Assembly: GCA_019637755.1 (NCBI GenBank)
Contig: JAHBVC010000001.1
Location: 1,082,480 to 1,146,479 of the forward strand
Reading direction: 5' to 3'
Origin: Anaerolineales bacterium
Lineage (GTDB): Bacteria; Chloroflexota; Anaerolineae; Anaerolineales; UBA11579
DNA length: 64,000 bases
The notes under the pieces are model-generated. The model was not told the DNA's origin. It did not search any database and saw nothing but the letters and a program-made list of their open reading frames with translations. Below, piece after piece: positions 12,431 through 21,704 of this stretch. The number at the start of each line of letters is the position of its first letter. Within the stretch, counting starts at the first letter, position 1. Made by a program: the position numbers and the translations under genes.

Positions 12431-13879
12431 CTAAAACAGCGAGCGCGCCGCAGCGATAGCCCAGTCATACCAGGGGGCAATCACTACGCCCAGCACCAAG
12501 ACCAGCAGCACGCTGAGTGTGATGGCGATGCCCGACGCGCGCTGCACAGGCAGCGGGCTCTCATCCTTGGGCATATCCAGGTACACCACCTTGAGCACCA
12601 CCAGGTAGTAGTACAGGCCCACGATCGAGTTGAGCACACCCAGCACGGCCAGCCAGATCAGGTTGGCCTCCACCGCCGCGGCAAACACGAGCACCTTGGC
12701 GATGAAACCACCCAGCGGGGGAATGCCGGCCAGCGAGAGGAAGGCCAGCAGCATCGCCAACGCCAGCATCGGGTTGCGCCGGCTGAGGCCGGAGTACTCT
12801 TCGACTTCGTCAGAGCCCAGCGCTTTGCCAACAACGGCAACGATGCCAAAGCTGGCCAGGTTGGTGAGCACGTATACGATCAAATAATAGACGACACTGG
12901 CCACACCCAGTTCCGAGGCCGCCACAACGCCCAGGATGGCGTACCCGGCGTGGGCAATACCCGAATAGGCCAGCAGACGCTTGATGTTCTTCTGCGTCAG
13001 CGCCACCACATTGCCAATGAACATCGAAGCCACGGCCAGGATGCTCAGCATCATCTGCCAGTCAGGCAGGATCTGCGGGAAGCTAGCCAGCATCACGCGC
13101 ACCAGCACCATGAAGCCTGCGGCCTTGGAGGCGGTGGAGAGGAAAGCCGTCACCGGGGTCGGTGCCCCTTCGTACACATCGGGCGCCCAGAAGTGCATCG
13201 GCACTACGGCCACTTTGAAGCCAAAGCCGAGCATTACCAGCACCAAGGCACCGATCAGCAGCGGCCCGGGCACGGCGCCGGCGGTGATCGCCGCGGCCAT
13301 GCTGTAGAGGTTCGTGCTGCCGGCGAAGCCGTACAGCAAGCTAAAGCCATACAGCATCACTGCGGTGGTCATCGCCCCAAACAGCAAGTACTTGAAGCCT
13401 GCTTCGGTGGACTTGTTGTCCTCACGCAGGAAGCCAGCCAGAATATACAGCGGGATCGAGGTAGTCTCGATGGCCAGGAAGAGCATCACCAGGTCCGCCG
13501 AGGCGGCCATCAGGGTCATACCGATGGTGGAGGTGAGCAGCAGGGTGTAGTACTCGCCCTTGCGCCATAGCTCGCCCCAACCCACCGAGAGCAGCGTGGT
13601 GATGAAGGCTGCGAAGATAAAGAGCAGCTTGGCAATGTAGCCGAGCATATCGTGGCGCAGCATGCCACCCCACACCAGCGTCGCGCTGGCGCCCGGGTGG
13701 GTGTAAAGCAAGGTGATCACAAAACTGGCCAGCAAGCCTACGGCGGTCACCGTGGCCAGCACGCCACGGCGTGCCTCGGCCAATACCAGATCCAAGGTGA
13801 AGACCACCAGCAAGACCACCAGCAGGGCAATCTCCGGCAGAATGGTCAAAAGCATGTCAGGGGTAATGGAGCCAAACAC
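12431..13879 (-). CDS. nuoN: NADH-quinone oxidoreductase subunit N
   Basis: Antiporter-like subunit of the complex I membrane arm, 482 residues with about 14 helices. The central TM7 lysine is present in GFGFKVAVVPMHFWAPDVYEG, and STASKAAGF carries the next conserved Lys. The start is GTG at 13879 with GGAGG nine bases upstream, two bases after the second nuoM stop. It is the last gene of the nuo operon; the Fo promoter follows at once. Confidence 0.95.
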   Translation of the reverse strand: MFGSITPDMLLTILPEIALLVVLLVVFTLDLVLAEARRGVLATVTAVGLLASFVITLLYTHPGASATLVWGGMLRHDMLGYIAKLLFIFAAFITTLLSVGWGELWRKGEYYTLLLTSTIGMTLMAASADLVMLFLAIETTSIPLYILAGFLREDNKSTEAGFKYLLFGAMTTAVMLYGFSLLYGFAGSTNLYSMAAAITAGAVPGPLLIGALVLVMLGFGFKVAVVPMHFWAPDVYEGAPTPVTAFLSTASKAAGFMVLVRVMLASFPQILPDWQMMLSILAVASMFIGNVVALTQKNIKRLLAYSGIAHAGYAILGVVAASELGVASVVYYLIVYVLTNLASFGIVAVVGKALGSDEVEEYSGLSRRNPMLALAMLLAFLSLAGIPPLGGFIAKVLVFAAAVEANLIWLAVLGVLNSIVGLYYYLVVLKVVYLDMPKDESPLPVQRASGIAITLSVLLVLVLGVVIAPWYDWAIAAARSLF

Positions 13880-13881
13880 TG

Positions 13882-15354
13882 TTATGCGCCTCCTACCAGG
13901 GCCAGCACCGCGTTCACGCCGTGCTCAACCATGGGAACAACCACACCGGGGAAGATACCGATACCCACCATGATCACCACCAGCACCGCCAGGGCCACCT
14001 TCTCCGAAATACGGATGTCGTGCATGTGGCCTTCCAGATTGGCTGGCATCTCGCCAAAGAACACCTTGCCGATGGCGCGCAGGATGTAGGCCGCGGTGAC
14101 CGCAATCGAAATCGCCGCCACAATCGCAATCCAGGGCGTGCGTGCCCAGACCCCCATGAAGATGGGGAATTCGGCCACGAAGCCAGAAAAGCCAGGCATG
14201 CCCATACCCACCAAACCAGCGATGATGAACGCCACCCCGGCGTAGGGCATGATCTTCATCATGCCGCCCAGCTCAGGGATCTGGCGCGTATGTGCCTGAT
14301 CATAGATCATGCCGACCACGGCGAAGAACAGGGCGGTCATCACCCCGTGGGAAACCATCTGGATGCCGGCGCCCACCAAACCATCATGGTTGAGCGTCGC
14401 CAAGCCCATCGCCACCAGCCCCATATGCGAGACGGAGGAATAACCGATCATGTACTTGAAATCGGTCTGGGTCATGGCGATGAAGGCGCCGTAGACCACG
14501 TTCACCAAGGTGAGCAGAATGATCCACCACATGTGGTACTGGGCACCCTCAGGCATGAGCATGATGCCCACGCGCAACGCGGCGAACGCGCCCAGCTTCA
14601 TCAGCACGCCGGCATGGAACATCGAAACCGCCGTGGGGGCGGCCACGTGGCCATCCGGGCTCCAGTTATGGAAGGGGAAAATGCCGCCGAGGATGGCGAA
14701 GCCAAAGAATACAAACGGGAACCACAGGCGTTGAAACTCCGGCGAGAAGTTTGCGCCTTGCAATTGGAGAAAGTCGAAGGTGTGCAGGCCGGAGGTGAAA
14801 TACATCGCCAGCACACCCACCAGGGCGATCACCGAGCCAATGAACAGATACAGGGTCAGCTTCATGGCGGCGTATTCGCGTGCCTGCTTCCAGCCCCAAA
14901 TGGCAATCAGCAGGTACATCGGGAATACGGCGATCTCGTAGAAGAAGAACAGGGCAAACAGGTCCAGCGCCACAAAAACGCCGAAGACACCGCTGGCCAG
15001 CAGGAACAAGAAGGCGAAGAATTCGCGCGGGCGGTCATCAATGCGCTGCGAGATGATCACGCCGGTGAAGATGACTACGCCGGTGAGCAATACCAGCGGG
15101 GCCGAGATGCCGTCTACGCCCACGTGGTAGCTGATGCCCAGCGCCGGCAGCCAGTCATACTGCTCGATGAACTGGAACTGCGCACCGTTGGCATCAAACC
15201 CCACGAACACCAGCAGCGACAAGAAGAAGGTCACTGTGGCCACCGCCAAGGCGAAGCTGTAGATCAGCTTGCGGTTGGCAGGCGGCAGGAACAACAGCAC
15301 CACGCCAGCCAGGATGGGGAGTAAGACAATTGCACTAAGGATAGGAAAGCCCAT
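13882..15354 (-). CDS. nuoM: NADH-quinone oxidoreductase subunit M, second copy, lacking the TM7 lysine
   Basis: A 490-residue antiporter-like subunit. The conserved Glu of TM5 is kept (FFFYEIAVFPMY, Glu140), as is the TM8 Lys (LMKLGA, Lys253) and a later Glu (GFVAEF). In the TM7 block, where the first NuoM reads AFAIKVPVWPFHTW, this copy reads GFAILGGIFPFHNW: the central lysine is Leu222. The ATG at 15354 (MGFPILS) has AAAGGTG five bases upstream and replaces a longer overlapping start. It lies between the first nuoM and nuoN. Whether it still moves protons is open. Confidence 0.92.
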   Translation of the reverse strand: MGFPILSAIVLLPILAGVVLLFLPPANRKLIYSFALAVATVTFFLSLLVFVGFDANGAQFQFIEQYDWLPALGISYHVGVDGISAPLVLLTGVVIFTGVIISQRIDDRPREFFAFLFLLASGVFGVFVALDLFALFFFYEIAVFPMYLLIAIWGWKQAREYAAMKLTLYLFIGSVIALVGVLAMYFTSGLHTFDFLQLQGANFSPEFQRLWFPFVFFGFAILGGIFPFHNWSPDGHVAAPTAVSMFHAGVLMKLGAFAALRVGIMLMPEGAQYHMWWIILLTLVNVVYGAFIAMTQTDFKYMIGYSSVSHMGLVAMGLATLNHDGLVGAGIQMVSHGVMTALFFAVVGMIYDQAHTRQIPELGGMMKIMPYAGVAFIIAGLVGMGMPGFSGFVAEFPIFMGVWARTPWIAIVAAISIAVTAAYILRAIGKVFFGEMPANLEGHMHDIRISEKVALAVLVVIMVGIGIFPGVVVPMVEHGVNAVLALVGGA

Positions 15355-15364
15355 TAATTCACCT

Positions 15365-16921
15365 TTAGCCGAACAAAGCAACCACGGCCTGATTGATTAC
15401 GCTGAGCAGCCAGGCCGGCCAAAAACCGAGCCACAGCATCAGCACCACCAGCGGAGCCATCACCAGCAACTCGCGGCGGCTCAGATCTGCAAAATGATTC
15501 TTCCAGTGCTCATTCAGCGGGCCATGCAGGGTCTTGGCGATCCCCTTGAGGATATAGGCACCGGTGAAGAACAAACCGATCATGCTGATGGCGGTATAGA
15601 CGGTAAACACCGGCCAGGCGCCGCGCACCACCAGGAATTCGGATACGAAGCCATTCAAGCCCGGCAGGCCGAGCGAGGACATCGAGCTAAAGATCAGCAA
15701 GGCGCCGTAGACCGGCAGCAAGGCAAACAAACCGCCGAACTTCTCGAGGTCACGCGTGTGCGTGCGTTCGTAGATCGCGCCGACGAGGAAGAACATCGCC
15801 GCAGCCGAGATGCCGTGGTTGAACATTTGCAATACCGCGCCATTCATGGCGATGGTGCCATCCGGCGTGCCAGCGGCATGCGCCGCAGCGGCAATGCCCA
15901 GCACCACGAAGCCCATATGGTTTACCGAGGAATACGCCACCAAGCGCTTGAAATCGGTCTGTGCCCAGGCCGAGAGGGCGCCGAACACGATCGCCGCGGT
16001 GGCCAGGGCGGCCAGCACGCCGGCGTACTGGTGCGCCTGCTCGGGGTAGAGCGGCAAGATCAAGCGCAGGAAGCCATAGGCGCCCAGCTTGAGCAGCACG
16101 CCAGCCAGCACCATCGAGCCGGCAGTGGGCGCTTCGGTGTGCGCATCCGGCAGCCAGGTGTGGAAGGGCCACACCGGCACCTTGATGGCAAAGGCGATCA
16201 CGAAGGCCCAGAAGGCGACCGTCTTGACTGTCTCGACCGGCAGGCCGAACAGGGTGCCTTGCAATGCTGGCCAGCTCTGGAAGATGCTGATCAGATCAAA
16301 GGTGCCAGAGACGACACCGATCATTTGGATCGCCAACAACAGGCCCAGCGAGCCTGCCATGGTGTAGATGATGAATTTGAAGGAGGCGTAGCGGCGGGCG
16401 GGCACCTTGATGCCGTTCCATAGCGTGCGCTCCCCCGCTGCGCTGCCCCACTGGTCGATCAGGAAGAACATCGGCACCAGGCCGATCTCCCAAAAGACAA
16501 AGAAGAGCAACAGATCCAGCGAGAGGAACACACCCAGCATGCCGGTTTCCAGCGCTAGGAACAAAGCCATATAGGCCTTGACCTTTTCTTCAACACTAAA
16601 CGAAGCCAAAATCGCTACTGGGGTCAACAAGGTGGTGAGCAATACCATGCTGAGCGAGAGGCCATCGATGCCGAGGTGGTAATTGGCGTTGATGGCGCTG
16701 TACCAGACAGCCTGCTCCTGGTAGCGGAAGCCATCCACCACCGGAGCCGCCTGAAAGCCCAGCCAAGCAGCTAGCGTGAGGGCAAAGGGCACCAGGCTGA
16801 GCGCAAAGGCCACCAGCCGGATGAGTTTCTTATTCTCGCCCGGCAGCAACAACACAAGCAACGCCGCGGCCAGCGGGCTGAACAGAATGAACGAGAGAAG
16901 ATGTGAATTCAGAAAGTCCAT
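15365..16921 (-). CDS. nuoM: NADH-quinone oxidoreductase subunit M, first copy
   Basis: A 518-residue antiporter-like subunit with all expected charged residues: Glu145 in FVFWEIGLVPMFF, Lys247 in AFAIKVPVWPFHTWLPDAH, Lys278 in LLKLGAYG and a Glu in NGFVSEF. It should be a functional proton-translocating module. It lies between nuoL and the second nuoM with gaps of about ten bases. Confidence 0.96.
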   Translation of the reverse strand: MDFLNSHLLSFILFSPLAAALLVLLLPGENKKLIRLVAFALSLVPFALTLAAWLGFQAAPVVDGFRYQEQAVWYSAINANYHLGIDGLSLSMVLLTTLLTPVAILASFSVEEKVKAYMALFLALETGMLGVFLSLDLLLFFVFWEIGLVPMFFLIDQWGSAAGERTLWNGIKVPARRYASFKFIIYTMAGSLGLLLAIQMIGVVSGTFDLISIFQSWPALQGTLFGLPVETVKTVAFWAFVIAFAIKVPVWPFHTWLPDAHTEAPTAGSMVLAGVLLKLGAYGFLRLILPLYPEQAHQYAGVLAALATAAIVFGALSAWAQTDFKRLVAYSSVNHMGFVVLGIAAAAHAAGTPDGTIAMNGAVLQMFNHGISAAAMFFLVGAIYERTHTRDLEKFGGLFALLPVYGALLIFSSMSSLGLPGLNGFVSEFLVVRGAWPVFTVYTAISMIGLFFTGAYILKGIAKTLHGPLNEHWKNHFADLSRRELLVMAPLVVLMLWLGFWPAWLLSVINQAVVALFG

Positions 16922-16930
16922 GAGATCTCG

Positions 16931-19087
16931 TTAGCGCAGCACAGTGAATAGATAGTAGAAGAGGCCGCCAAAGGCTACCAGCGCGACCACCAGCATGTAT
17001 TGCTGCACCGCACCGGTCTGTACTTTGCGCAACACACGCCCGATTGCGGCCGTCATGTGTGCAATCCAATTGCCGAAGCCGTTGATCACCGGGTTTTCAA
17101 AGCCATAGCGGAAGAAGGTGCCCAGGTCCAGCGAATTGCGCGCCACCCAGTGCAGCGCCCCGTCGATCACCGTGCGATCGAGGAACCAGTACGAGAACTT
17201 TTCGGCGATCACGCGAGCCGGGCGCACAAAGATGCGCTCATACAGCTCGTCAATGTAATACTTGTTTTGCAGCAAGGTATACAGCGGGCCTAGCGGCTTG
17301 CGCAGCGGGTCCACCGTGCCGGCCTTGCGATACACCAGGTACCCCAGGCCCAAGCCGCCCAACGCTACACCCAGCGAGATACCCAGGGGGATCGTGCTAA
17401 AGTCCGGCGCATGCGGGTGCTCCAGCAGGGTGCCGCCCACGAAATCGTGGAACCAACTGGGCAGCAGGCCGCCGATGACGGGGAAGTGCTCAGGAATGCC
17501 CACCCAGCCGGCGATGACGGCGAAGACCGCCAGCACCATCAGCGGGGCGGTCATCACCAGCTTGTTCTCGCTGGCGTGCTCGGCGGCCTTGGTGCGCGGC
17601 GCCCCGAAGAAGGTCAGCGTGATCTGGCGCATGGTGTAGAAGGCAGTCAGCAAGGCCGCCAGCGAAAGGGTGATCAATACGCCGAGGTGCCCATTGGCAA
17701 AGGCATCGGCCAGAATTTCATCTTTGGACCAAAAGCCGGAGGTGATCAGCGGGAAGCCGGACAGCGCGAAACCACCGATCAAAAAGGTCCAGAACGTGAT
17801 CGGCATCTTCTTGCGCAGGCCGCCCATGTTGAACATGTCTTGCGGGTCTACGTGTTCGCCGGTATGCAGCACGCCGTGCTCCATGCCGTGAATGACCGAG
17901 CCCGAGCCCAGGAACAGCAGCGCCTTGAAGAAGGCATGGGTCACCAGGTGGAAGGCGGCGGCCACATAGGCGCCGATGCCCAGCGCGGCGATCATAAAGC
18001 CCAGTTGCGAGATGGTGGAATACGCCAGCACGCGCTTGATGTCATTTTGTGTCACAGCGATGGTGGCGGCGAAGATAGCGGTCAGCGCGCCGATAAAGGC
18101 CATCACCGTCATCGTGGTGTTCAGCGGGTCACCGTGGTGCCAGCCCGCCGAGATCAGCGGGAACATACGCAGCACCATGTACACGCCCGCCGAAACCATC
18201 GTGGCAGCGTGGATCATCGCCGAAACCGGTGTGGGGCCTTCCATCGCATCCGGCAGCCAGACGTGCAGCGGCCACTGGGCCGATTTGCCCACCGTGCCGA
18301 TGAAGAGCAGCAAGCCGATCAAGCCAGCTGCCGAGAGGCCAAACACACCGCTGGGCGTTGTGGCCAGGGTGTGCAGAATATCTTCGTTGCGCAGGATGTC
18401 GTAGAAGTTCAGCGTGCCGGTGGCGGAATAGAGCGCCACGATACCCAGCAGCATGAACACATCGCCGATACGTGTGGTCAGGAAGGCTTTGATGGCGGCG
18501 TTGCGCGCTGAGGGTTTGGCGTACCAGAAGCCGATCAGCAGGTAGGAGCACAAGCCCATGATCTCCCAGCCCACGAACAGGGTCAGCAAGTTGTCGGAGA
18601 CCACCAGCGTGAACATGCCGAAGGCGAACAGGGCAATGAAAGCGAAGAAGCGCGCGTACAACGGCTCCACCGAGGGCACATGGTGGCCGTGCACCTCTGC
18701 GCCATGCGGCGGCAGGCCCGGCTTGTCATGCTCGCCCTTGGGGGCACCAAAGTTGTGATAGCCGATGCTGTAGATGAAGATCATCAGCACCGTCCAGGCT
18801 ACGAAGAACAGCACCGCAGCATTCAACGGGTCAATAAACACGCCGATATTGAAGAAAGTGTCACCCGTGGGCAACCAGTTGATCGCCGAGCGGAACGGGT
18901 GCTCACCGAGGTGCTCCACCCCGATGGCGGTGAAGAACACCACCATGCCCAGCAGCCAGGAGATGGCCGCCGCGGCAACGCCTACGGTGTGGCTGAGGGC
19001 GTTGTTCTTGCGAGTGAACAGCAAGATCAAAAAGAACGCCAGCAGCGGCGGGAGCGGAATAAGCCAGATCAGGGTTTCAGTCGGCAT
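16931..19087 (-). CDS. nuoL: NADH-quinone oxidoreductase subunit L
   Basis: Distal antiporter-like subunit of complex I. At 718 residues it is about 100 longer than the E. coli protein. TM5 Glu lies in FVGWEIMGLCSYLLIGFWY and TM7 Lys in GTVGKSAQWPLHVWLPDAMEG. A long C-terminal part with YYIDELYERIF and a final helix corresponds to the lateral helix region and its anchor. A loop near residues 110-130 (HGAEVHGHHVPSVEP) is His-rich. The gene follows nuoK by three bases. Confidence 0.96.
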   Translation of the reverse strand: MPTETLIWLIPLPPLLAFFLILLFTRKNNALSHTVGVAAAAISWLLGMVVFFTAIGVEHLGEHPFRSAINWLPTGDTFFNIGVFIDPLNAAVLFFVAWTVLMIFIYSIGYHNFGAPKGEHDKPGLPPHGAEVHGHHVPSVEPLYARFFAFIALFAFGMFTLVVSDNLLTLFVGWEIMGLCSYLLIGFWYAKPSARNAAIKAFLTTRIGDVFMLLGIVALYSATGTLNFYDILRNEDILHTLATTPSGVFGLSAAGLIGLLLFIGTVGKSAQWPLHVWLPDAMEGPTPVSAMIHAATMVSAGVYMVLRMFPLISAGWHHGDPLNTTMTVMAFIGALTAIFAATIAVTQNDIKRVLAYSTISQLGFMIAALGIGAYVAAAFHLVTHAFFKALLFLGSGSVIHGMEHGVLHTGEHVDPQDMFNMGGLRKKMPITFWTFLIGGFALSGFPLITSGFWSKDEILADAFANGHLGVLITLSLAALLTAFYTMRQITLTFFGAPRTKAAEHASENKLVMTAPLMVLAVFAVIAGWVGIPEHFPVIGGLLPSWFHDFVGGTLLEHPHAPDFSTIPLGISLGVALGGLGLGYLVYRKAGTVDPLRKPLGPLYTLLQNKYYIDELYERIFVRPARVIAEKFSYWFLDRTVIDGALHWVARNSLDLGTFFRYGFENPVINGFGNWIAHMTAAIGRVLRKVQTGAVQQYMLVVALVAFGGLFYYLFTVLR

Positions 19088-19090
19088 CGC

Positions 19091-19399
19091 TTACCACTTC
19101 ATCAAGTTAATTTCGTCCGCGGCCACGGTCTTGCGGCGACGGTAGATGGAAATAATCAGGGCCAGGCCCACCGCCACTTCAGCGGCGGCCACGGCGAATA
19201 CGATCACGGCAAAGGCGTGCCCGCCGATCTTGTCAGGGGTGAAATAGCGCCAGAACGCCACCAGATTGATGTTCACCGCGTTCAGCATCAGCTCAACGCC
19301 CATCAAGATGGCCACGGCGTTCTTGCGAGCCAGCACGCCGTACAGGCCGATGCAGAACAGCAGCGCGGCCAGCACCAGATACCAGGAAAGCGGAATCAT
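19091..19399 (-). CDS. nuoK: NADH-quinone oxidoreductase subunit K
   Basis: A 102-residue three-helix subunit (MrpC-like). The conserved Glu of TM2 lies in LMGVELMLNAVNINLVAF. A second acidic site follows in VAAAEVAVGLALIISIYRR. It belongs to the central proton channel with NuoA, J and H. Length and motifs are standard. Confidence 0.96.
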   Translation of the reverse strand: MIPLSWYLVLAALLFCIGLYGVLARKNAVAILMGVELMLNAVNINLVAFWRYFTPDKIGGHAFAVIVFAVAAAEVAVGLALIISIYRRRKTVAADEINLMKW

Positions 19400-19406
19400 A
19401 CGTTGC

Positions 19407-19922
19407 CTACTTACCTTTCTTCTGCGGGCGGGCCACCACCAGCGCGCCGATCAGGGCCGCCAGCAGCAAAACCGAAGCCACTTCGAACGGGATCACAAAT
19501 CCCTCGGGGGACACCAAGCTCACACCCAACTCCGCCGCCAGATCGCGGGCGGTATTGATCTCGCCCGGCAGGCTGGCCACCGCCGGCCATTGGCCGATCA
19601 GGATGATCAGGCCAAAAGCAAACAGCGCGCTGAGCAACAAGGCCCAGCCATAGCCCTTGTTCACCGGGGCCTCTTCAATTACATCGCCGCGGGTCAGCAT
19701 CACCGCGAAGATCATAATGATGGAAATGGCACCGATGTACACCAGCACTTGCACCACCGCCAGGAACCCGGCATCCAGCAGCACAAAGACGATGGCCACA
19801 CCAAACAGGGCCAGAATGAGATAGAAGGCGGCATGCACCAGGTTCTGGCGTGTCACCATCATAAAAGCCGCCCATAGGATCAGGCCAGCAGCGAACAGAA
19901 AAACACCTTGCATTGCAGTCAT
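19407..19922 (-). CDS. nuoJ: NADH-quinone oxidoreductase subunit J
   Basis: A 171-residue five-helix subunit. The NPVHAA-type early block appears as RQNLVHAAFYLILALFGVAIVFVLLDAGFLA, followed by VLVYIGAISIIMIFAVML, the pi-bulge helix region that controls proton gating. ATG at 19922 or 19913 are alternative starts. It lies between nuoH and nuoK. Confidence 0.94.
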   Translation of the reverse strand: MTAMQGVFLFAAGLILWAAFMMVTRQNLVHAAFYLILALFGVAIVFVLLDAGFLAVVQVLVYIGAISIIMIFAVMLTRGDVIEEAPVNKGYGWALLLSALFAFGLIILIGQWPAVASLPGEINTARDLAAELGVSLVSPEGFVIPFEVASVLLLAALIGALVVARPQKKGK

Positions 19923-19955
19923 GCGTTCGACTCCATCAGAAGAGGCTGGCGGGCG

Positions 19956-21140
19956 CTAGGCCGCGCGCGCCTCTGGACGTTCCTTGAAGGCTTTGCGCTC
20001 ACGGCGGGCACGGCGCGTGCCGAGCCGAATAATGGCCCAAGCAAGCGCCAGCACCACCAGGTTGCCAGCCAGCAGCGCCGGCACACGCAGCGCGGTCTCA
20101 CTGAACAGCTTATCCAGCACGGCGGTAATGATCAGCAGGGCCAGCGCCACCGGGGTGAGCACCTTCCAGTTCAGATCCAGCATGTGGTCAATGCGGATGC
20201 GCGGCAAGGTGCTGCGCACCCACATCACAATGAAATAGCCGATGGTGGATTTGGCCATCAGGTACAGCACACCGAGAATGGGGAACTGCTCCGCCCCGGG
20301 GCCACGCCAGCCACCCAGAAACAGGATGGCGAACAAAACGCCCACGGTGAAGGCATGCAGGAATTCGGCAGCGAAGAACAAGCCGAACTTCATACCGGTG
20401 TATTCGGTGTGATAGCCGGCCACGATTTCAGATTCAGCTTCGATAAGGTCAAACGGAGTGCGGCCCACCTCAGCGATCGAGGAGACCAGGAAGATGATGC
20501 CGGCCAGCGGTGCCAGGGCAATGAACCATACCGATTGGTCTTGCACAACATCCACCATGCCCATGCTACGCGCCAGCAACACCGGCACCAGCAGGGTCAG
20601 CAGCATCGGCACCTCGTACGAGATGAGCTGCGCCACCGCACGGAACGCACCCAGCAAGGCGTACTTATTATTGGAAGACCAGCCAGCCATGAGGATCGAG
20701 AGAATACCGAAGGACCCCACCGCGGCGATGTACAACACGCCAACGTTGAGATCGGTACCGATCCAACCGGGCGCAAAGGGCACCACGGCCCAGATCAGCA
20801 ACACGGCGATCATCGAGATGATCGGCGCCAGGTTGAAGGTGATCTTATCGGCCTTCTCTGGAATGCTATCTTCCTTAGTAAGCAGCTTTACGATATCGGC
20901 GATGGTTTGCAACAGACCATACGGGCCAGCGCGGTTCGGGCCGATGCGGTCTTGAAAACGGGCGGCCACCTTGCGCTCCAGCCAGATCAGGAAGATCACC
21001 AGGATCAGGCCGAAAGACGAAACCGCCACCACGCCGATTACGTTACTGAGCAGGGTGGCCCACGCCTCGGGCAGCAAACTGGCCAGCAGGCCAGTCAGCC
21101 ATTCGTTAATCACACGGATTGGGTCGCTCCAAAAAGACAT
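19956..21140 (-). CDS. nuoH: NADH-quinone oxidoreductase subunit H
   Basis: A 394-residue subunit lining the quinone chamber. The signature WLERKVAARFQDRIGPNRAG follows the first membrane helix, and the acidic loop block PFDLIEAESEIVAGYHTEY matches the conserved E-channel region. GAGGAT precedes the ATG. The C-terminal extension is basic and rich in Arg. Confidence 0.97.
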   Translation of the reverse strand: MSFWSDPIRVINEWLTGLLASLLPEAWATLLSNVIGVVAVSSFGLILVIFLIWLERKVAARFQDRIGPNRAGPYGLLQTIADIVKLLTKEDSIPEKADKITFNLAPIISMIAVLLIWAVVPFAPGWIGTDLNVGVLYIAAVGSFGILSILMAGWSSNNKYALLGAFRAVAQLISYEVPMLLTLLVPVLLARSMGMVDVVQDQSVWFIALAPLAGIIFLVSSIAEVGRTPFDLIEAESEIVAGYHTEYTGMKFGLFFAAEFLHAFTVGVLFAILFLGGWRGPGAEQFPILGVLYLMAKSTIGYFIVMWVRSTLPRIRIDHMLDLNWKVLTPVALALLIITAVLDKLFSETALRVPALLAGNLVVLALAWAIIRLGTRRARRERKAFKERPEARAA

Positions 21141-21194
21141 TCGTTATCCTCTATACGCAAATAAAAAGGCTGTTTCAGCGCGGGCTGCAGCCTT

Positions 21195-21551
21195 TTATGA
21201 CCATTCCAGGGCGCCTTTGCGCCATGCGTAGAACAAACCGCCTACGAGAATGAGGATGAAAAGCACACCCTCCAGCACCGCAAACATCGGCAGCACATCG
21301 TAAGCCACCGCCCACGGATACAGGAACGCGGTCTCAATATCAAAGATCAGGAAGATCAAACCGTAGATGTAGTACTGCACCTTGAACTGCACCCAGGTGT
21401 CACCCACCGTCTCCATACCACATTCATACGTTTCTAATTTAATGTAGTTGGGCTTGCGGGGGGCCAAGACGCGCGCAATGATGATGGGCAGCAGGGGAAA
21501 GACGCCTGCAATTGCAACAAATACGCCGATAAAAAGCCAGTTTTGTTCCAT
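21195..21551 (-). CDS. nuoA: NADH-quinone oxidoreductase subunit A
   Basis: A 118-residue three-helix subunit. YECGMETVGDTW in the first loop holds the conserved Cys that marks quinone-site conformations, and FLIFDIETAFLYPWAV is the standard acidic TM2 motif. The start MEQNWLFIG at 21551 gives the family's usual length; the frame extends upstream but without family resemblance. It is the first gene of the operon. nuoB, C, D, E, F, G and I are absent between A and H and nowhere else in the window. Confidence 0.96.
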   Translation of the reverse strand: MEQNWLFIGVFVAIAGVFPLLPIIIARVLAPRKPNYIKLETYECGMETVGDTWVQFKVQYYIYGLIFLIFDIETAFLYPWAVAYDVLPMFAVLEGVLFILILVGGLFYAWRKGALEWS

Positions 21552-21577
21552 GCGGATTGGGTCTCTTTGTCCTGATT

Positions 21578-21604
21578 TGCCGCAAAAAGATTCACTATGC
21601 GGCA
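21578..21604 (-). promoter_or_regulatory. Small hairpin in the nuoA leader
   Basis: TGCCGCA (21578-21584) pairs with TGCGGCA (21598-21604) around 13 bases. ATTGTA at 21623-21628 gives TACAAT, a possible -10, on the minus strand upstream of it. No known riboswitch is recognised. Confidence 0.35.
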
Positions 21605-21704
21605 GATTTACATATAAACCGGATTGTAACACAAGTGCACCGTTTGTGCATCTTTCCGCAATCAAAGCGCTATACAGGCGCTAATTGGGGCGTAAGAGCT
21701 GGGC

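Follow-up and report, generated by a model that had tools for sequence, protein, structure and literature searches.

A NuoM subfamily of Chloroflexota and Bacteroidota that may relay protons through a TM8 histidine in place of the TM7 lysine

The second NuoM of a two-NuoM complex I, encoded in the window (the whole stretch of 64,000 nucleotides of Anaerolineales DNA that was analysed), carries a leucine in place of the central lysine of TM7, a residue that models of both complex I and Mrp describe as invariant and essential. NuoM2 is probably a working antiporter-like module of this complex, one in which Glu140 on TM5 would have a TM8 histidine (His247), not a TM7 lysine, as its basic partner. 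A broader claim, to which about even chances are given, is that, in a whole NuoM subfamily of Chloroflexota and Bacteroidota (gut Bacteroides among them), protons are pumped or relayed with no TM7 lysine, by way of the TM8 histidine, and that this histidine was replaced three more times by a lysine on TM5 or a histidine on TM6.

The nuoM2 gene (13882..15354, minus strand, with the ATG at 15354 and the TAA stop at 13882) is an open frame of 490 aa whose translation matches the NCBIfam profile TIGR01972 with 466.2 bits, above the cut-off of 263.8. An AlphaFold2 model of the product (pLDDT 89.2) finds the NuoM of M. smegmatis as its top match among solved structures (VIA-align Z 56.2, rmsd 1.4, 488 residues), and NuoM2 is a NuoM both by profile and by fold. 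The operon shows the order nuoA-H-J-K-L-M1-M2-N (12431-21665, minus strand) and is followed by ATP synthase genes. Besides nuoM2, it comprises nuoN (12431..13879), the canonical nuoM1 (15365..16921), nuoL (16931..19087), and the genes nuoK, nuoJ, nuoH, and nuoA (19091..21665), the last four named from their translations and matching, when used as queries, the corresponding genes in other nuo operons.

This arrangement resembles the 2M complex I (Chadwick et al., 2018), which is described in passages of later papers as having an extra NuoM that pumps an extra proton (PMC7117926; PMC9040806; PMC6606698). As in that description, the second nuoM lies between nuoM1 and nuoN, in the order nuoL-nuoM1-nuoM2-nuoN, and NuoL has a long lateral helix. 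The insertion expected in this helix is ~26-28 aa; in the window, 79 aa separate the YID and QQY anchors, other complete 2M loci have 76-80 aa (one further locus with 65 aa has a cut frame), and single-NuoM loci have 49-52 aa apart from two exceptions. One of these is the second complex I of the host genome itself (L081, G000:C1:1036000-1055500), with a single NuoM in its cluster and yet a lateral helix of 80 aa; the other is a single-NuoM cluster in a 1.75 Mb Chloroflexota genome (L164, 81 aa). For Manganitrophaceae, NuoL insertions are also reported in complexes that are not the one carrying extra subunits (PMC9040806). As described in PMC7117926, the 2M complex takes a Chloroflexi form with nuoBCDI away from the operon and nuoC fused to nuoD. 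The NuoD-domain match of the host genome, which measures 2.26 Mb in two contigs, lies in a 596-aa, NuoCD-sized frame (C1:537406-538152) separate from the window operon, within which no such match was found; this fits the fused nuoCD of the Chloroflexi form. The second host complex I (~C1:1,040,000-1,054,500) is a 14-subunit type with NuoEFG and one Lys-type NuoM, and its operon holds the one NuoF of the genome. The passages on 2M complexes in PMC7117926, PMC9040806, and PMC6606698 mention neither a missing TM7 lysine nor a TM8 histidine.

On TM7 of NuoM2 (GFAILGGIFPFHNW), Leu222 (CTC, 14689..14691, minus strand, as for all residues below) aligns with the lysines of E. coli NuoM (K234), NuoL (K229), and NuoN (K217), so that the canonical antiporter-like pair of TM7 lysine and TM5 glutamate is lacking. 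The glutamate of the usual pair, Glu140 on TM5 (GAG, 14935..14937), is kept, as are Lys253 on TM8 (AAG, 14596..14598) and Glu395 on TM12 (GAA, 14170..14172), the residues by which NuoM proteins are recognised. Within the same operon, the TM7 lysine is present in NuoM1 (K247), NuoN (K222), and NuoL (K268). All of this agrees with the preliminary description, which had placed Leu222 in the lysine column with the other three residues retained and had noted the lysines of NuoL and NuoN. The alignment of paralogues proposed there gave Leu222 in 81/81 M2 genes of a first sample of 80 Anaerolineae/Chloroflexota loci, against a TM7 lysine in 77/77 M1, 77/77 N, and 71/71 L genes covering the site. One of the six peptides used to search this sample spanned the TM7 motif; later samples, drawn without motif patterns, gave the same result. 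The alignment has no gaps around the motif, and no other lysine of NuoM2 slides into the column. A sequencing error or a pseudogene was likewise rejected, given the 81/81 leucines, the open frame, the retention of the other relay residues, and the need for at least two base changes from Lys to Leu (CTC and AAG differ at all three positions). In the sequences with a TM8 histidine, all six leucine codons occur at site 222; hence, it is the amino acid that is kept and not the codon.

Wider draws of Chloroflexota NuoM, counted from here on as distinct sequences, fall into two types. The 179 Lys-type sequences have K222 and, at position 247, Leu (173) or Val (6), while the 216 Lys-less ones comprise 170 with L222+H247 (the L/H type), 31 with L222+L247, 8 with T222+L247, and 7 with L222+A247; K222 together with H247 was seen in no sequence of this sample. 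In a tree built with the trait columns left out, one branch with 100/100 support parts the Lys-less from the Lys-type proteins. With NuoL and NuoN, which both have the TM7 lysine, as outgroup, the lysine is the ancestral state; the split received an SH-aLRT of 86 in this quick tree with long rows. On this tree, the loss of the lysine is old and common to the whole clade, in which, as judged from the residues, Leu222 and His247 go together. A recent loss in the window genome was therefore rejected, and the earlier statement that the second NuoM "has lost" its lysine is true of the residue, not of a local event. The clade is not confined to Chloroflexota, and NuoM proteins of Bacteroides are up to 49% identical to the Chloroflexota L/H type. 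E140, K253, K300, H310, H336, and E395 are almost invariant in NuoM2-type proteins. Throughout the Lys-less sequences, E140 and E395 are kept, save for D140 in the lineage with H170, and K253 is kept save for a few sequences with K252. The shift of the TM8 lysine by one (K252, with A/N253) was noted in NuoM2 of seven loci (L111, L128, L130, L131, L132, L134, and L135), of which the f6 members (L128, L131, L132, L134, and L135) also have Gly for His336. As a separate observation, NuoM1 of a set of 2M loci (L103-L110, L112-L115, L118, L119, L122, L123, and L130; families f23, f33, f58, and f61) mostly has Ser before the TM8 lysine and often Ala at TM5 residue 146, which indicates that M1 diverged as well as M2.

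The search for a substitute basic residue, also proposed in the preliminary description, yielded a candidate by sequence that was absent from it: His247 (CAT, 14614..14616) on TM8, six residues before Lys253. It is invariant in 170 of the 216 Lys-less NuoM, where it accompanies Leu222, and its counterpart in NuoM1 is Leu272. NuoM2 has the fold of canonical NuoM/ND4/Nqo13 and shares with it the TM5 Glu, the TM8 Lys, the TM12 Glu, and His310/His336, but differs in TM7 Lys to Leu, TM8 Leu to His, and Thr170 to Leu on TM6 (Leu170, 14845..14847; Thr/Ser in Lys-type NuoM). A TM8 histidine is familiar from the "histidine switch" of NuoL/ND5 and MrpA, as in E. coli NuoL (His254). In MrpA, the TMH8 His and Lys are likewise six residues apart (H273/K279 in Anoxybacillus; PMC7419157), and the MrpA-like protein of the window genome, reading HSATMVK, has the same spacing. 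Relative to NuoM, TM8 of NuoL and MrpA is one residue longer in its N-terminal part: with the C-terminal end (TM8 lysine and aromatic) as anchor, H247 coincides with their histidine, whereas an alignment from the N-terminal side puts it one residue earlier. Because the result depends on the end from which the alignment is made, positional identity is not claimed. Moreover, NuoL and MrpA keep the TM7 lysine and have a lysine on TM12, where NuoM2 has L222 and E395.

His247 was lost in three lineages, and each of them shows a new basic residue, twice Lys146 on TM5 and once His170 on TM6. Position 146 (Met146 in NuoM2, 14917..14919) lies six residues after Glu140 and aligns with Ser150 of NuoL, a residue hydrogen-bonded to the TM8 His254 when this histidine is turned towards the Lys-Glu pair (PMC13358369). 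Lys146 occurs in both Leu247 lineages. In family f3 (31 distinct sequences, among them those of L099 and L191-L219), it is present in 31/31, together with E251 on TM8, and these two are the sole new conserved titratable columns within the scanned residues 80-479; their co-occurrence may reflect a new ion pair. In family f13, K146 is found in 8/8 distinct sequences, where it is one of eleven columns that are new. In f57, two genera (7 sequences, among them those of L233-L237) have Ala at the TM8-His site, D140 for Glu140, and H170 in 7/7, a column that was picked after searching for new titratable ones; most of these proteins have a further His at 305. Neither K146 nor H170 occurs among the 170 L/H and 179 Lys-type sequences. 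The direction of compensation is the same in 3/3 losses, a number of cases that cannot reach significance (sign test p 0.25).

The Lys-less clade supplies the extra NuoM of the Chloroflexota two-NuoM complexes. The idea that this type is only ever an extra copy was rejected, since, unlike in the available descriptions of 2M complexes, it is also found as the sole NuoM of three-antiporter complexes. In each of six genomes (G255, G114, G276, G230, G288, and G206), the antiporter-like genes number exactly six and form two L-M-N trios; a PF00361 search gave no further NuoM, and one trio in each has an L/H-type NuoM. In G255 and G114, the second trio has a NuoM that was read as Lys-type (L158 and L160); in the remaining four, it would, from its position, be of this type as well. 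Operons with a sole L/H-type NuoM show the layout A-B-C-D-H-I-J-K-L-M-N, although some loci are incomplete or lack one small subunit that matches weakly. Their NuoL has a lateral helix of 49-51 aa, as in Lys-type single-NuoM complexes. Bacteroides finegoldii and Prevotella nigrescens again have the L/H type as sole NuoM in their annotated operons, and Phocaeicola massiliensis carries it as well; the records of all three are labelled plasmid. No Bacteroides-type NuoM was found among viral contigs. Genes for NuoE, F, and G were found neither in the stretches around the sole L/H-type NuoM nor in the Bacteroidota operons shown. A strict link between the Lys-less type and the loss of NuoEFG was rejected, since a Lys-type complex without NuoEFG in its locus exists as well (L176).

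These operons bear on the view that NuoM2 is a structural spacer or a charge relay without transmembrane proton transfer, so that the two-NuoM enzyme would pump no more than a normal one. The preliminary description had left the choice between a spacer and another pumping route. The second option fits a histidine that does not vary in the greater part of the clade and gives way to other basic residues in the lineages that lost it; the first is disfavoured, because a sole NuoM in three-antiporter operons in which the NuoL lateral helix is short, and in Bacteroidota complex I, is hardly a mere spacer. The near invariance of the relay residues from E140 to E395 and the recurrence of basic residues once His247 is lost also speak against it, although a sole L/H-type NuoM that merely relays may be compatible with these points. 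For a spacer, it can be said that central residues drift in some M2 (K252 with A/N253, G336) and that the TM7 lysine is essential in the NuoM studied (PMC9802314). In Paracoccus denitrificans, NuoM K232Q severely diminished the membrane activity and left the purified enzyme without turnover, while the proton stoichiometry was unchanged in every NuoM variant that turns over (PMC9802314). Furthermore, HycC of E. coli, the lone antiporter-like subunit of a hydrogenase complex, also has Leu (Leu208) for the TM7 lysine and keeps Glu135 on TM5, Lys239 on TM8, and Glu391 on TM12, so there is a precedent for losing the lysine; in formate hydrogenlyase, the usual N-side proton path is reported to be interrupted (PMC9474812). 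HycC has Phe233 and no TM8 histidine, unlike NuoM2 with its His247. The NUO complex of B. fragilis, without NuoEFG and with an operon poorly expressed in rich medium, showed no NADH:quinone activity (PMC7002350); this counts against a working module, with B. fragilis compared by description and not by its NuoM sequence, but is explained also by the absence of NuoEFG and the poor expression. On balance, a spacer is considered unlikely.

Since the purified K232Q enzyme does not turn over, a Leu222 protein that is the sole NuoM of a long-kept operon must have another solution, or its enzyme must not need this step. His247 supplying a base beside Glu140 would be the most economical solution. In the preferred reading, a working module paired through His247, the residue serving as base for the TM5 glutamate would have shifted from TM7 to TM8, with the module still relaying protons along a putative lateral path Glu140 - His247 - Lys253 - His310/His336 - Glu395. 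These residues, and Lys146 or His170 where present, would point into one pocket, His247 would do the charge switching otherwise done by the TM7 lysine, and the module would conduct and pump.

Slightly less probable even than a spacer is that no base is needed beside Glu140, with water and the TM8 lysine sufficing, and that His247 serves cytoplasmic proton exchange, as proposed for MrpA His273. This is in line with the Mrp work, according to which the link to the cytoplasm runs along TMH8 at the His, while the Lys7-Glu5 pair acts in electrostatic control outside the proton path (PMC7419157), and with E. coli NuoM without the TM8 lysine, which keeps 35-55% of activity and so suggests that water can replace a lysine (PMC9802314). 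It leaves unexplained why Lys146, six residues from Glu140, arose in both Leu247 lineages and Glu251 in one. A changed coupling ion or direction, with the residue swap adapting the module to a different driving force (e.g. use with ferredoxin-type donors), is improbable. The absence of NuoE/F/G around the sole L/H-type and Bacteroidota operons and the placement of the one NuoF of the window genome in its other complex I would suit it; the Lys-type complex without NuoEFG (L176) speaks against it.

In a literature search that covered few subscription papers and not Chadwick et al. (2018), which could mention the substitution, no Lys-less NuoM subfamily was found, nor any earlier report of a clade with the Leu/His swap, of its use as sole NuoM, or of the repeated basic residues. 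The Lys-less clade amounts to a mutagenesis experiment on the proton pumping of complex I that nature has already run. As a natural clade with a histidine on the neighbouring helix, serving as the sole NuoM in culturable gut bacteria, it makes the role of the Lys-Glu pair directly testable. It is also a warning not to read the number of NuoM copies as a number of protons pumped. If the reading holds, the Lys-Glu pair of complex I would be a movable functional unit and not a fixed residue.
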